A stretch of DNA of 64,000 bases from Levilinea saccharolytica (GTDB taxonomy: Bacteria > Chloroflexota > Anaerolineae > Anaerolineales > Anaerolineaceae): contig NZ_LGCM01000039.1 of NCBI RefSeq assembly GCF_001306035.1, positions 62,001 through 126,000 on the forward strand, read 5' to 3'. Each line of letters begins with the position of its first letter. Position 1 is the first letter of the stretch. The notes beneath the pieces are model-generated. The model saw only the letters and a program-made list of their open reading frames with translations. It was not told the origin of the DNA and did no database searches. A program made the translations under genes and the position numbers. Below, one piece after another: positions 1,894 to 50,180 of this stretch.

Positions 1894-2089
1894 AGTTAAA
1901 GAAAAACAGATGCAATAAAGGATCTTCCCCTGCCCAGACGTTCGCGCTCAGCTGCGCTACCAGAATGGGCAGGGATTTTCTGTATTTGGCTCCCAGCCGT
2001 TCGGGAACCGGGCACGAGGTCAGCCAGTTCTGCCTCGACGCTGAGCCGTGACCCAGACGCACTGCTGGCAAGCGAATCTCTTGGCAAAC
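1894..2089. other. Non-coding segment beyond the DGR template repeat
   Basis: No gene is supported here. In the leftward direction it lies just beyond the template repeat and could contain the 3' part of the TR transcript, which in known DGRs extends past the TR. I saw no clear terminator. Confidence 0.4.
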
Positions 2090-2203
2090 CTGTGGAGGGC
2101 CAAAATGCGGAAGCCGATGTTGTTGTTCCTGTTGTGAGGATTGTTGTTGTTGCGGTTAGACACCCGCGCGTTGTCTTGATTGTTGTTCCAGGAGCCGCCG
2201 TGC
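2090..2203 (-). repeat. DGR template repeat (TR)
   Basis: This 114-bp segment aligns without gaps to 3763-3876 (offset 1673). The 19 differences are at + strand positions 2093, 2120, 2121, 2124, 2127, 2132, 2133, 2144, 2145, 2151, 2156, 2157, 2171, 2172, 2174, 2177, 2183, 2184 and 2201. All are T on the + strand, that is A in the coding sense. Of 36 such adenines 19 differ; in the VR they are 9 T, 7 G and 3 C. No C, G or T of the TR sense strand differs. The sense strand is rich in AAC codons, which adenine mutagenesis can turn into many residues without making a stop. It begins 25 bp after the avd stop codon. Confidence 0.97.
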
Positions 2204-2228
2204 CCTTTGACCCGCGCCCAGAAAAGGG

Positions 2229-2576
2229 CTACTTGCTGCCCATTTCGTCTTTGATCCAGCCGCCCAGGCAATTGCCAGTTTCTGTCACCATACGGGCAAA
2301 ATGCTCGTACTGCGGCACCGAGATCAGTTTCTGATCCCGCGCAAAGCGCATCCACAAGCGCAGCTGCTCCAAACGGACATCCGCCTGCCGCAAATGGGTT
2401 TGACGCTGGCTGGCACGGCTTTTGCCTGCCGCAATCAATTGGTCTTGAAAATCGAGGGCAATATTCTGGATCCGCTCTGACAAACTGAAGCGGTACGCGC
2501 GGGGAAATCCCTGAACCTGCGGAATCAGCCACAGCAGTAAATCGTACGTGCGGGTAAAAACCGGGGATTCATTCAT
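2229..2576 (-). CDS. avd: Avd-like DGR accessory variability determinant (four-helix bundle)
   Basis: A 115-residue, mostly helical, basic protein (helices around residues 5-20, 28-50, 60-82, 88-110) with the size and character of Avd, the pentameric partner of DGR reverse transcriptases that binds the template RNA and is needed for mutagenic cDNA synthesis. Its ATG (2574-2576) overlaps the stop of the reverse transcriptase gene as ATGA, so the two are translationally coupled, and the template repeat follows 25 bp after its stop. Family assignment rests on length, helical pattern and this exact gene order; the sequence alone would only say four-helix-bundle protein. Confidence 0.88.
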
Positions 2577-3640
2577 AATACAATCGCTCCTAGAACAGCC
2601 TTCCGCAGACCCCAGGTGTCGCCAAAGCGCACATGGTTGATCCAGCCCTGGATGCAGGCGTTGAGTTGGGTGATAGAAACGCCGCCGGTGGAATATTCTT
2701 CCAACTGGCGGCGCAGTTTGCGGCGAAAATGGACGACCTTGCGGTGTTTGATGCGCCGGTGATCTGGGTAAATTCGAAATCCCAAGAACGGGATACCGGT
2801 AGCGGTTGGAAAGACCTGCGCGCGTTTCTCATGCAGGGTCAAACGCAAGGATGCCATTTTTTCAAAGATAGCGTTGCGCCAATTCAGAAGCGAACTGATG
2901 TCATCCCCAAAGAGCAGGAAATCATCCACATACCGGATGTAGGCCGGGCATTTCAGGTCGCGTTTGACGAAGTGGTCGAAGGTATTGAGATACACATTCG
3001 CCCAAAATTGGCTGGTAAGATTGCCGATCGGAAGCCCGCGCGGACGGATGGCTGCCAGCAAATCGTCTCCTGGGAAATACACCGTTTCATATTCTTCCTG
3101 CAAAACGCCCTCCCCGCTGCGCAAAATTTTGTCGCACAACCAGAGCGTGTTCTCATCGGGGATGAGCCGGGCCAGCTCAGCGCGCAGAATGGCTAGATCA
3201 ATAGATGCAAAAAATTGGCGCACATCGCATTGCAGCACATAGCGGTATTGGCGGGCAAACTGGGTGGTGCGGTCCAGCGCACGGTGGGTCCCTTTTCCGA
3301 CCCGATTGGCATAGCTGTCGTAGATGAAGCGGTTTTCCCAGATGGGTTCCATCAACCGGCAAAGCGCATGGTGCACCACCCGGTCGCGGAAGGGTGCAGC
3401 AGAAATCAATCGTTTCTTGGGGTCGTGGATATAAAAGCTGTGGTAGGGACCGGGCTGGTAGGTGAAATGCTGCAGTTCCGCTTGCAGAGCCAACAGCTCC
3501 TCCTCCTGAACACGTTCAAAAGCAGCCGCTCCTTCACGATACCGCTTGCCTTTGCGAGCCTTTCGCCAGGCATCATACAGGTTTTCAAACGAACAAATCT
3601 GCGGATACAAGTTTCGATAGGTTTTCACAGGCCTCCTCAT
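2573..3640 (-). CDS. DGR reverse transcriptase
   Basis: A 355-residue reverse transcriptase of the retroelement class. Visible motifs are KKRLISAAPFRDRVVHHAL (motif 1 region), the first catalytic aspartate in LQCDVRQFFASID, the GLPIGNLTSQFWANVYLN segment, whose IGNLTSQ replaces the usual QG of other reverse transcriptases and is a hallmark of DGR enzymes, and the catalytic YVDD in YIRYVDDFLLFGDD. It copies TR RNA with errors at adenines and supplies the cDNA that overwrites the VR. The open frame extends upstream to 3706, but homology starts near the Met at 3640. No good ribosome site precedes that ATG; AGGAGG lies just inside, 3 bp before a GTG at 3628, so the exact start is unsure. Confidence 0.96.
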   Translation of the reverse strand: MRRPVKTYRNLYPQICSFENLYDAWRKARKGKRYREGAAAFERVQEEELLALQAELQHFTYQPGPYHSFYIHDPKKRLISAAPFRDRVVHHALCRLMEPIWENRFIYDSYANRVGKGTHRALDRTTQFARQYRYVLQCDVRQFFASIDLAILRAELARLIPDENTLWLCDKILRSGEGVLQEEYETVYFPGDDLLAAIRPRGLPIGNLTSQFWANVYLNTFDHFVKRDLKCPAYIRYVDDFLLFGDDISSLLNWRNAIFEKMASLRLTLHEKRAQVFPTATGIPFLGFRIYPDHRRIKHRKVVHFRRKLRRQLEEYSTGGVSITQLNACIQGWINHVRFGDTWGLRKAVLGAIVL

Positions 3641-3758
3641 GGTGTTTTTTAACGCGGCCCCGCTGCGCGGGGTTGGCAAAGAACCCCTTTGCTCAGAGTC
3701 AGACAATGACCGACCGAGCAGGACAGAACACCGAAAACAGAAAACGGAACGCAGCCCC
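3641..3758. other. Spacer between VR and reverse transcriptase with hairpins
   Basis: A 118-bp non-coding gap that holds alternative hairpins: CCCCGC (3658-3663) with GCGGGG (3667-3672), or GGGGTT (3669-3674) with AACCCC (3682-3687). A shorter one spans the target stop codon (CCCC 3755-3758 with GGGG 3765-3768). In some DGRs a hairpin just downstream of the VR raises retrohoming efficiency; a similar role here is a guess. Confidence 0.45.
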
Positions 3759-6317
3759 TTAACTGGGGAGGGCCAAAATGCGGAAGCCGATGAAGTAGTC
3801 CCTGAGGTGAGGATTGCCGTTGTAGCGGACAGACACCCGCGCGCGGCCTAGATTGAAGTTCCAGGAGCCGCCGCGCAGGGATAAAACATCGTGATCCTTA
3901 TCGCGGTAATTGGCCAGCCACTCCCAGACGTTCCCGCTCAGATCCATCACCTCACGTGGGCTGGCGCCCTGCGGGTACATCCACACCGGCGTGGTGCGAT
4001 TGATCTGGCTTTCGCTGGTGTTGGCGTAACGGGAAATTTCTTGACTGGGGGTGCCCAGTTCACCAAAGGCAAAACGACCCTTTTCGTCCCCGCCTGCCGC
4101 TGCTATCCATTCCGCCTCCGTCGGCAGCCGCAGTTGGGCCGGCCTCGCCAGGCCGCGCTGACCCTCTTCCAGCTTCTCCCAGTGGGTCCACAGCCATCGG
4201 CAGTAGGCGTTGGCTTCATACCACGAAATTCCCACCACAGGGGCATTTGTCCGCCGGGCCCCAAAGCGGGCGTCCTGCCAGTAGCGCGGGAGGAGCACAC
4301 CGTTTTCTTTTTTCTGGCCTTGCAGCCAATCCCAAGCCTGGCTGCCCCAGTTGCCGATCGGTTTGTAATTTTCTTCGGGCTCAGCCAATTTCGGGAAGCC
4401 TTCCCACAGTGAACGATCCGCGAAGTTCTCCGGCTGCAAAAAGCGCGCATACTGGGCGTTGGTCACCGGGTATTTACCGATGGAGAATCGGGTGAGACCC
4501 GTCCCGATCTCCACAAAATCAAAAACATCCTGCGGTGCAAAACCCAATTCGTCAGCAACGTCAGCCGCATTGGCGCGGGATGTTGGAGGAAATTCGGAGT
4601 TTTGTGCAAGGCTGACCAAGTGATTCTGCGCCATCCTATGCTGCGGGCCTTGGGTGTCAGGCTCTCGTTCCTTCAGCGCAGCCAGCACTTCACGGATTTT
4701 TGCCAGGTCGCCGCTTTCCAATTCACGCGCCCAGTCTTCCGAAAGCTGCAAAGGGGGTGGAGCACCGTCCACAGTATCCGGCTCAAATGCGCCCACCAAC
4801 CCCACATAAACTTGCACTTCGCTTCGCGTCAGGCCGCCAAACCGGGCACGCTGAGACCCCTTCCCGGCTTCTAAAGGGTAGCGCAGCAGTTCTGCCAGCA
4901 AGGCATACTTCTGGCGGTCATTCAAAAATGGCGCCATCAGTCCCGACGCCGCCGGGCGCCGCGCAGGTCGAAGGGATGCCTCACGGTCAGCATTCCCGGC
5001 ACTAGGCTGCACCTTCTCACCCGGCGTTTCCTCAACGTTGAGGCCGCGCAAAAGCTCATCTTCCGAAACCGGCTGGCGTGTGTATTCGTCTTCCAGGGTC
5101 TGGATCAGGGTGGGGTATTGCCGCCAAAGCTTGTAAAGTTCTGGCCATTGGCTCTGGATGAGAACCGTTTTCGCCAATAAGGGAAAGGCCAGGAAATCCT
5201 TGGGAATTAACGCTCGCTTTTCCTGTTCTTGCGCCACCTGCTTTAACAAGAAAAACACGTTCAACGCGCGCTTCACCTGACGCGGGTTGGGGTACATCCC
5301 GCGCGCAAAGGCCTCACGGGTCATTTCATCCAGATGGTAATCAGCGGGGAGGTCGGTTTCCAGGTTCTGAATGAACTTTTCGCGAGCCTTCATGTCCAGC
5401 GGCGGCAAGTTGAACGGGATTTGGATGATTTTTTGCAGATAGACATCGCCGTTGATGGGCATTTCGTCTTCGCTGCTGGTTTTGAGTAAGGCGCCGTAAT
5501 GAGCTTCGATGCCGCGCCGGACAACCTCCCGATCCATTCCCAAAACAAAGACGGTACCGGGCACGTCTAAAAAGAGTTTGATTGCTTCCAGCACTTCAAT
5601 GGCTTTTTCAGGCAAGCAGCGGTCCAAATCATCCACAAAAACCACCAGCCGCCCATCATTTCCTAAAACCAGTTGAATGGCTTTTTGAAATTCTTCAGCA
5701 AACTGCTCCATATAATTCAACTGGTTCAAATGGTGTTCGCGCACTTCGCGCTCAAGCAGTTGGGCCAAATCTGGATTGAGCCCCAGGTCTTTTGCCGCAC
5801 TTCCCAAGCCCGTCAAATGAAAAGCCAGCCAAATCGGCAGTTTGCTGCCCTGTTTGAGCAGCTCACCCGTGTTAAGGCTCCACTGTCCTTCATCCTGCCA
5901 ATTGACAGTCTCATAAATGCTGCGTTCCAGGCGGCCCAGGTGCTCCAATTTTTCGCGTTCGGCTTTTTCGGCGTCTTCCTTAAAATCCTCTGGCTGGTAA
6001 CGCGTTCCGTCCGCCTTCCGTGGGTGCAGGCTGTCCACCACGCGCAGCATGAAGGCGCGCCAAAGGGCATCATGTTGTTCGTATTTCCAGGCGGTGAACC
6101 AGACTGTTTTCAAGGACGGGCTTTTCTGGTTATCCAGCTCATCCTTTAGCATGTTCAACAACGTGGTCTTTCCGCTTCCCCAGGTTCCAAAAACGCCCAC
6201 GGTCAGGGGCGTATCAGCGGTTTGTAAAATATTCAGCAGAGCTGGTTTGAAAATCGAGAAATCCAACCCATCTTCCGAAGCTCGGTAGTCGCTGATAAAC
6301 CCGCTCTTTTTGACCAT
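3759..6317 (-). CDS. DGR target: KAP-type P-loop NTPase fused to a variable FGE/C-type-lectin domain
   Basis: An 852-residue protein. Residues 40-250 are a KAP-family NTPase: Walker A GTWGSGKTT (44-52), the family segment WFTAWKYEQHDALW, and Walker B VVFVDDLDRC (225-234) followed by EVLEAIKLFLD. A helical linker follows. About residues 595-852 are a formylglycine-generating-enzyme/sulfatase-modifying-factor domain, a C-type-lectin fold: YPVTNAQYARFL, ISWYEANAYCRWL, LRLPTEAEWIAAA, DLSGNVWEW, and the terminal [11 protein letters not shown]. Thirteen codons differ from the template: residues 815, 821, 823, 824, 825, 830, 832, 834, 838, 840, 841, 842 and 851. No membrane segment is evident. GGGGAGAGGG precedes the ATG. 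By analogy with other NTPase-sensor proteins it may recognise variable ligands and trigger a response, but this function is inferred. Confidence 0.95.
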   Translation of the reverse strand: MVKKSGFISDYRASEDGLDFSIFKPALLNILQTADTPLTVGVFGTWGSGKTTLLNMLKDELDNQKSPSLKTVWFTAWKYEQHDALWRAFMLRVVDSLHPRKADGTRYQPEDFKEDAEKAEREKLEHLGRLERSIYETVNWQDEGQWSLNTGELLKQGSKLPIWLAFHLTGLGSAAKDLGLNPDLAQLLEREVREHHLNQLNYMEQFAEEFQKAIQLVLGNDGRLVVFVDDLDRCLPEKAIEVLEAIKLFLDVPGTVFVLGMDREVVRRGIEAHYGALLKTSSEDEMPINGDVYLQKIIQIPFNLPPLDMKAREKFIQNLETDLPADYHLDEMTREAFARGMYPNPRQVKRALNVFFLLKQVAQEQEKRALIPKDFLAFPLLAKTVLIQSQWPELYKLWRQYPTLIQTLEDEYTRQPVSEDELLRGLNVEETPGEKVQPSAGNADREASLRPARRPAASGLMAPFLNDRQKYALLAELLRYPLEAGKGSQRARFGGLTRSEVQVYVGLVGAFEPDTVDGAPPPLQLSEDWARELESGDLAKIREVLAALKEREPDTQGPQHRMAQNHLVSLAQNSEFPPTSRANAADVADELGFAPQDVFDFVEIGTGLTRFSIGKYPVTNAQYARFLQPENFADRSLWEGFPKLAEPEENYKPIGNWGSQAWDWLQGQKKENGVLLPRYWQDARFGARRTNAPVVGISWYEANAYCRWLWTHWEKLEEGQRGLARPAQLRLPTEAEWIAAAGGDEKGRFAFGELGTPSQEISRYANTSESQINRTTPVWMYPQGASPREVMDLSGNVWEWLANYRDKDHDVLSLRGGSWNFNLGRARVSVRYNGNPHLRDYFIGFRILALPS
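3763..3876 (-). repeat. DGR variable repeat (VR) at the 3' end of the target gene
   Basis: This is the 114-bp partner of the TR, ending 2 bp before the stop codon of the target gene. The sense 3' part (3763-3789) is nearly invariant and GC-rich (encoding GFRILAL) and is the likely initiation site of mutagenic homing. The changes from TR convert Asn, Gln, Asp and His codons into Phe, Leu, Gly, Arg, Val, Tyr, Asp and Pro, and no stop codon is present, as expected for a functional, selected variant. Confidence 0.97.
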
Positions 6318-6600: not shown

Positions 6601-6646
6601 AAATTTCAGGAGCCCACCTTGGGGCGCGCATCTCGGTTTTGAATCC

Positions 6647-7397
6647 AAAAAGCCAACCGTACTGGCTGGCTTTAGTTTGGTGCCCCCAAGGGGACTCGAA
6701 ACATCCCCCTTGTGGGGATAGAATCCCCCCCGAGGGGACCCCTGTTTTGAAACAAAAAAGCCAACCGGTATCGGCTGACTTTTGTTTGGTGCCCCCAAGG
6801 GGACTCGAAACATCCCCCTTGTGGGGACCCCTGTTTTGAAACAAAAAAGCCAACCATAACTGGCTGGCTCTTCCGTAGTGCCCCCAAGGGGACTCGAAAC
6901 ATCCCCCCCGAGGGGACCCCTGTTTTGAAACAAAAAAGCCAACCGGCATCGGCTGACTTTTGTTTGGTGCCCCCAAGGGGACTCGAAACATCCCCCTTGT
7001 GGGGATAGAATCCCCCCCGAGGGGACCCCTGTTTTGAATCCAAAAAGCCAACCGGTATCGGCTGACTTTTGTTTGGTGCCCCCAAGGGGACTCGAAACAT
7101 CCCCCCCGAGGGGACCCCTGTTTTGAAACAAAAAAGCCAACCGGTATCGGCTGACTTTTGTTTGGTGCCCCCAAGGGGACTCGAAACATCCCCCCCGAGG
7201 GGACACCTGTTTTGAAACAAAAAAGCCAACCATAACTGGCTGGCTCTTCCGTAGTGCCCCCAAGGGGACTCGAATAGAATCCCCCCTGCGGGGGCCCCTG
7301 TTTTGATACAAAAAAGCCAACCGGTATCGGCTGACTTTTGTTTGGTGCCCCCAAGGGGACTCGAAACATCCCCCCCGAGGGGACCCCTGTTTTGAAG
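6647..7397 (-). repeat. Array of eight degenerate copies of the tRNA-Glu 3' end plus terminator
   Basis: Units start at 6647, 6754, 6843, 6932, 7042, 7130, 7219 and 7310 and are 88-110 bp long. Each has a terminator-like hairpin (sense AAAAGTCAGCC paired with GGTTGGCTTTT in the commonest type), then a block identical to the last 20 bases of the tRNA-Glu gene (sense TTCGAGTCCCCTTGGGGGCA), then a G/C-run insert of variable length, then sequence matching the bases before the T loop (CAAAACAGGGG). The intact tRNA-Glu and its own terminator at 7411-7523 form the ninth, complete unit. No unit could fold as a full tRNA. Reading frames across the array only reflect the repetition. Confidence 0.9.
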
Positions 7398-7410
7398 GGT
7401 TTGCACATTA

Positions 7411-7444
7411 AATCAAAAGAGCCAACCGATGAAGGTTAGCTCTT
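7411..7444 (-). terminator. Terminator of the tRNA-Glu gene
   Basis: In the leftward sense AAGAGCTAACC pairs with GGTTGGCTCTT (10 of 11 pairs) around a six-base loop and is followed by TTTTGATTT. Related hairpins recur in every unit of the neighbouring array. Confidence 0.8.
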
Positions 7445-7450
7445 CCGTAG

Positions 7451-7523
7451 TGCCCCCAAGGGGACTCGAACCCCTGTTTTGGCCTTGAGAGGGCCGCGTC
7501 CTGGGCCGCTAGACGATGGGGGC
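7451..7523 (-). tRNA. tRNA-Glu (anticodon CTC)
   Basis: A 73-nt cloverleaf: acceptor GCCCCCA pairs with TGGGGGC plus discriminator A, D-arm TCGTCTAGCGGCCCAGGACG, anticodon loop CTCTCAA (anticodon CTC) and T-arm GGGGTTCGAGTCCCC. The first anticodon-stem pair is C-A. CCA is not encoded. Its 3' end faces the DGR island and is the source of the repeat array. Confidence 0.95.
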
Positions 7524-49670: not shown

Positions 49671-50180
49671 CCGCCAACCATGTCATCGCGAGCCCTCGTA
49701 CTTCGAGGGTGTACCCTCGCACTTCGAGGGCGTGGCGATCTCCACCTCGGCACATCCTCTTCCTTCAGGGTAGAGACTGCTTCGACCGGAAACCCACCGG
49801 TCTCGCAGTGACATGTGTATAGGATGTCATCGCAACTACCGCCAACCATGTCATCGCGAGCCCTCACACTTCGAGGGTGTACCCTCGCACTTCGAGGGCG
49901 CGGCGATCTCCACCTTTCGGGGTAGAGAATGCTTCGACCGGAACCCCCCCGGTCTCGCCCTCAAAAGGCGAGGGCAGGCAGTGACACTTGCTTGATGTCA
50001 TCGCAACCACCGCCAACCATGTCATCGCGAGCCCTCGCACTTTGGCGGCGTGCCCTCGTACTTCGAGGGCGTGGCGATCTCCACCTTTCGGGGTAGAGAC
50101 TCCTTCGACCGGAACCCCCCCGGTCTCGCCCTCAAAAGGCGAGGGCAGGCAGTGACACGTCAATAGGATGTCACCACGGC
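49671..50180. repeat. Three tandem copies of an interspersed, hairpin-rich repeat
   Basis: Copies start near 49671, 49839 and 50010 (period 168-171 bp). Each has CCGCCAACCATGTCATCGCG, then a palindromic CCCTCG...CGAGGG block (often doubled), GGCGATCTCCACC, GGTAGAGA and TCGACCGGAA, then a CCGGTCTCGC box and GCAGTGACA. They look like intergenic repeats of the REP/MITE kind rather than genes; open frames across them have no ribosome site. Confidence 0.8.

Follow-up and report, generated by a model that had tools for sequence, protein, structure and literature searches.

The chromosome of Levilinea saccharolytica, a Chloroflexota host, almost certainly carries a complete diversity-generating retroelement (DGR) that would retarget a probable immune-type sensor. 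The stretch analysed was a window of 64,000 nt (GCF_001306035.1, contig NZ_LGCM01000039.1, positions 62,001-126,000), and all coordinates are positions within it. The cassette is complete and reads target-VR-RT-Avd-TR-RNA, entirely on the minus strand, with open reading frames for target, RT and Avd. In the proposed working, an operon transcript would carry RT, Avd, TR and a structured RNA 3' of the TR; RT and Avd would bind this RNA, make cDNA from the TR and misread its adenines, as in BPP-1. The cDNA would then take the place of the VR in the 3' end of a KAP-FGE gene; the site is probably marked by a fixed A/C (IMH-like) position, a TCTG tract and a hairpin. The predicted outcome is a varied ligand-binding face of the FGE/C-type-lectin domain, with the NTPase part probably coupling ligand binding to a response, in the manner proposed for bacterial antigen-sensor and conflict systems.

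DGRs, FGE targets, remote targets and KAP-NTPase targets have already been published (PMC3521204, PMC7517822, PMC10907252); the least-known parts are the clade-wide RNA and TCTG tract. The element is a clean and intact case, on a chromosome, of hypermutation directed at a probable immune-type sensor, and its comparison with relatives opens to testing the way in which a DGR picks out its own target genes, distant ones included.

The cassette and its adenine-specific differences

The TR (2090..2203, minus strand, 36 A) and the VR (3763..3876, minus strand), which forms the last codons of the target gene, align without a gap over 114 bp. They differ at 19 positions, every one a TR adenine, and at 0/78 positions with other bases; were 19 differences placed at random, the probability of every one hitting an A would be 4.2e-12 (hypergeometric). 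The VR carries T at nine of these positions, G at seven and C at three, only at codon positions 1 and 2, and 13 target codons are altered with no stop. The first-pass annotation had described this gap-free alignment and the 13 stop-free codons correctly, and it was also right in claiming a complete DGR with its genes on one strand: RT, Avd, the A-only TR/VR pair and an FGE/C-type-lectin target were each tested and found. Its interval, 2090-6317, holds the core parts and is too short at the 2090 end, because the RNA continues to about 1927.

Its count of 19 out of 19 differences at adenines held, but only 18 of them are mutagenic. At the 3' end of the repeats the TR has A (2093) and the VR has C (3766, minus strand), and the same A-to-C occurs in 21/25 related loci, a count read off locus alignments; an automatic tally gives C in 23/28 pairs and misassigns a few rows in which the aligned stretch ends early or the last spaced A difference is internal. 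Away from the terminal position, A-to-C accounts for 49/389 substitutions (12.6%). In a second DGR of the same genome, on contig C46, the terminal change is synonymous (CGA/CGC), and therefore protein selection is no explanation there. The position is best read, from these alignments, as a fixed mismatch of the IMH*/IMH type known from BPP-1 (PMC3240598, PMC12875486). Because this 3'-most difference is fixed clade-wide, the mutagenic differences become 18/18 among 35 A. At the sequence level the element has both an IMH/IMH*-like difference and a hairpin after the VR.

The RT (355 aa, 2573..3640, minus strand) was assigned from domain matches, motifs, a structure search and a tree; its reading frame opens at a TTG (3706), and the best start is the ATG at 3640. 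It retains QCDVRQFF, IGNLTSQ and YVDD, which comprise the catalytic aspartates and the (I/V/L)GxxxSQ motif defined for DGR RTs (PMC3521204), so that the catalytic motifs and IGNLTSQ reported in the first reading are indeed intact. The closest solved RT is 8ub7 (E 6.6e-52), whose structure also contains a chain named Avd. In the tree the RT belongs to a Chloroflexota DGR clade, and cyanobacterial plasmid RTs and phage RTs lie outside it; its nearest relatives come from Anaerolineaceae and other Chloroflexota MAGs, including one of 75% identity in the window genome's own family. A phage origin was considered and rejected, the best phage RTs being ~40% and IMG/VR RTs 37% identical; a search with the target likewise yielded no viral relative. 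Avd (115 aa, 2229..2576, minus strand) scores 102.3 bits against NF033474 (1.5e-29; cut-off 80), matches PF22296 (1.2e-20) and is related to Bbp7/Avd structures.

The phage DGR of BPP-1 (mtd-avd-TR-brt) has in common with this element an RT, Avd, A-only TR/VR differences and an IMH/IMH* mismatch (PMC3240598, PMC12875486), as well as a GC hairpin after the VR, a structured spacer RNA after the TR and an avd gene just upstream of the TR. Unlike BPP-1, the present DGR lies on a host chromosome, its FGE target is fused to a KAP NTPase, its order is target-RT-avd-TR-RNA, and a TCTG tract, absent from BPP-1, separates VR and hairpin; the RTs are 36% identical.

The KAP NTPase-FGE target and its relatives

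The target gene (3759..6317, minus strand) encodes 852 aa. Pfam places a KAP NTPase at residues 27-355 (KAP_NTPase, 4.7e-40; Walker A GTWGSGKT, VVFVDDLDR) and a C-terminal FGE-sulfatase/C-type-lectin domain at 609-848 (FGE, 9.4e-34); the VR falls within the 3' end of the C-type-lectin/FGE part. An AlphaFold2 model of the FGE domain, based on 27 FGE domains, reaches a pLDDT of 88 and supersedes an earlier one from 6 sequences (pLDDT 42); Foldseek relates it to FGE and EgtB folds. Of the two cysteines in the whole protein (234 and 706), a single one lies in the FGE domain, which is therefore probably a binding scaffold and not an enzyme.

The target is a probable defence or immune-type sensor, a role in sensing conflict being suggested by analogy. 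In PADLOC, the KAP domain matches QatA (143.8 bits) and PifA (104.8 bits), defence ATPases that share the KAP NTPase domain. They differ from the target, which has an FGE domain and a DGR and lacks recognised QatB, QatC and QatD. Its NCBIfam QatA score, 172.5 bits, is far below the cut-off of 600 and does not make it a Qat protein. The flanking ORFs, read by eye, comprise a TetR-like regulator, an epimerase-like gene and tRNAs; among them no QatB, QatC or QatD was recognised beside the target, and no partner effector gene was seen adjoining it. By target type, the element can be likened to the DGRs of multicellular bacteria with STAND/KAP NTPase-CLec targets, which share the combination of NTPase and CLec/FGE (PMC10907252); KAP NTPases are among the target types of clade 5D, and filamentous Chloroflexi among the hosts (PMC10907252). 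Here, in contrast, there is a single local KAP-FGE target.

The second DGR, on contig C46, comprises an RT (57% identical to the window RT), Avd, a TR and kinase-FGE targets that lie on several contigs. Its TR has A-only VRs on C46 (L005 5607, 22 A) and on contig C7 (L028, 17 A), and shows 1 to 5 non-A differences to three further FGE genes. In the whole genome, no VR of the window TR was found beyond the local one; a match on C46, considered as an extra VR, proved to be the TR of the second DGR. Cross-use of the two TRs was not seen at up to 22 non-A mismatches. Cyanobacterial DGRs (PMC7517822) also have FGE targets and remote targets, with RTs ~50% identical, and their kinase-CLec targets are of the same type as the kinase-FGE targets of the second DGR. 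However, their VRs have a CCTTTTAC-type pyrimidine-rich tract where the window DGR has TCTG, and in several of them Avd precedes RT, unlike the RT-Avd order here.

Another genome, G025, encodes on contig C8 a full-length KAP-FGE homologue with 57% identity to the target. Its VR differs from a TR on contig C18 at 16 A and 0 non-A positions, while the local target of the C18 TR is a different FGE protein. Because the VR of this homologue matches a TR on another contig, the repeat comparisons indicate that diversification has recruited KAP-FGE proteins on more than one occasion, one of these being remote.

Candidate targeting signals 3' of TR and VR

The segment directly 3' of the TR (1927..2094, minus strand; covariance model R1) is conserved across loci and forms a structured RNA with three main helices, the terminal one pairing 1967-1974 with 1928-1935. 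The evidence for it rests on covariation, because the single-sequence fold is not significant (z -1.25). In an alignment of nine sequences, 54 paired cells carry double changes, whereas shuffles give 17.8 and slid controls no more than 11; a 15-locus alignment, itself fitted to the model, gives 122 against 32.7 in shuffles. R1 also detects loci outside its building set (L115, L083, L082, L110, L106 and L146). No Rfam family matches this RNA, and no description was found in the literature searched. It probably recruits RT-Avd and primes, as in BPP-1, since a functional structured spacer sits at the same place after the TR there (PMC12875486).

Downstream of the VR, the target gene is followed by a tract with four TCTG (3694..3741, minus strand) and then by the GC hairpin CCCCGC-GCA-GCGGGG (3658..3672, minus strand), whose position and kind are those of the BPP-1 hairpin (PMC3240598). 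TCTG is the most enriched 4-mer after VRs across loci, with at least two copies within 80 nt in 23/26 loci (1.15 expected), and most loci then have a hairpin with 6 bp or more. Among the papers searched, none mentions TCTG together with 'diversity-generating retroelement'. The idea that the tract pairs with the DGR RNA was tested and rejected, matched pairs being no better than mismatched ones (permutation p 0.52).

Both the RNA and the tract with its hairpin recur across Chloroflexota DGRs. With chances not far below even, these DGRs may use a two-part code, in which the covarying RNA 3' of the TR is joined by a TCTG tract, placed between VR and hairpin, that licenses local or remote targets. 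A rather unlikely alternative is that tract and hairpin serve the target gene merely as a transcription terminator or as a spacer and are no DGR target signal: a GC hairpin can act as a terminator, many tracts and hairpins sit in the short stretch that precedes the RT, and one FGE paralogue of the same genome, at L005 3514, has a tract with no TR match. However, the tract also follows VRs located away from the RT (L028, L089, L104, L108), is missing after the three others among the four own FGE paralogues that lack a VR match, and is nearly absent after TRs, where no tract of at least two copies occurs (0/22) and TCTG averages 0.27 per 80 nt against 3.4 after VRs. Tract and RNA are accordingly candidate cis signals for DGR targeting, and the tract offers a way to find remote targets overlooked when only the surroundings of the RT are searched. 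Under the two-part code, some cassettes with target, TR and RNA and no RT found beside them would be served in trans. In the paralogue at L005 3514-3629, which has 17 non-A differences to the C46 TR, a former target may perhaps be seen. A separate locus, L146 5301-6005 (G039:C59), combines an FGE target, a TCTG tract, a hairpin, a TR-like stretch and the DGR RNA; no RT or Avd was found beside the target and TR-like stretch, and this cassette is possibly served in trans.

Recent activity of the window DGR may reasonably be inferred from its repeats, because the 78 non-A positions hold no difference and the reading frames are intact. The window target is known from one VR sequence, which leaves some room for a degenerate or silent DGR, its anatomy intact and its VR frozen after one past event; this is improbable, given that all ORFs are open, the RT motifs are intact, TR and VR differ at none of the non-A positions and the RNA keeps its helices. 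If the FGE 3' end had simply been duplicated and its copies had drifted apart, TR and VR would both encode an FGE C-terminus, as they do; this reading is refuted by the substitution pattern, confined to adenines here and at many independent loci, most related loci with both repeats having A-only pairs.

Genomic setting

The segment 1875..6635 is absent from the syntenic site of a same-genus genome, G001 (blastn). That genome is collinear up to window position 1874 and again from a tRNA-Glu array at ~6636; between these points it carries other genes, about 8 kb, instead of the DGR, a two-genome comparison that fits gain or loss. Because it is absent from this one same-genus genome, the cassette is not essential to the genus. 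The array (6636-7470) consists of nine tandem copies of about 90-110 bp immediately 3' of tRNA-Glu(CTC), each comprising the 3' part of the tRNA (T-arm, acceptor) together with a hairpin resembling a terminator; at the corresponding place the same-genus genome carries fewer copies, and other relatives only single short tRNA-derived matches. In the same-genus genome a 6.8 kb insert between two tRNA-Lys copies (L093 10785-17738) contains a tyrosine-integrase-like ORF and adjoins the tRNA-Glu array, marking an integration hot spot. Elsewhere in the window, a 171-bp tandem repeat occurs in two copies at 49823-50158, with 93% matches.
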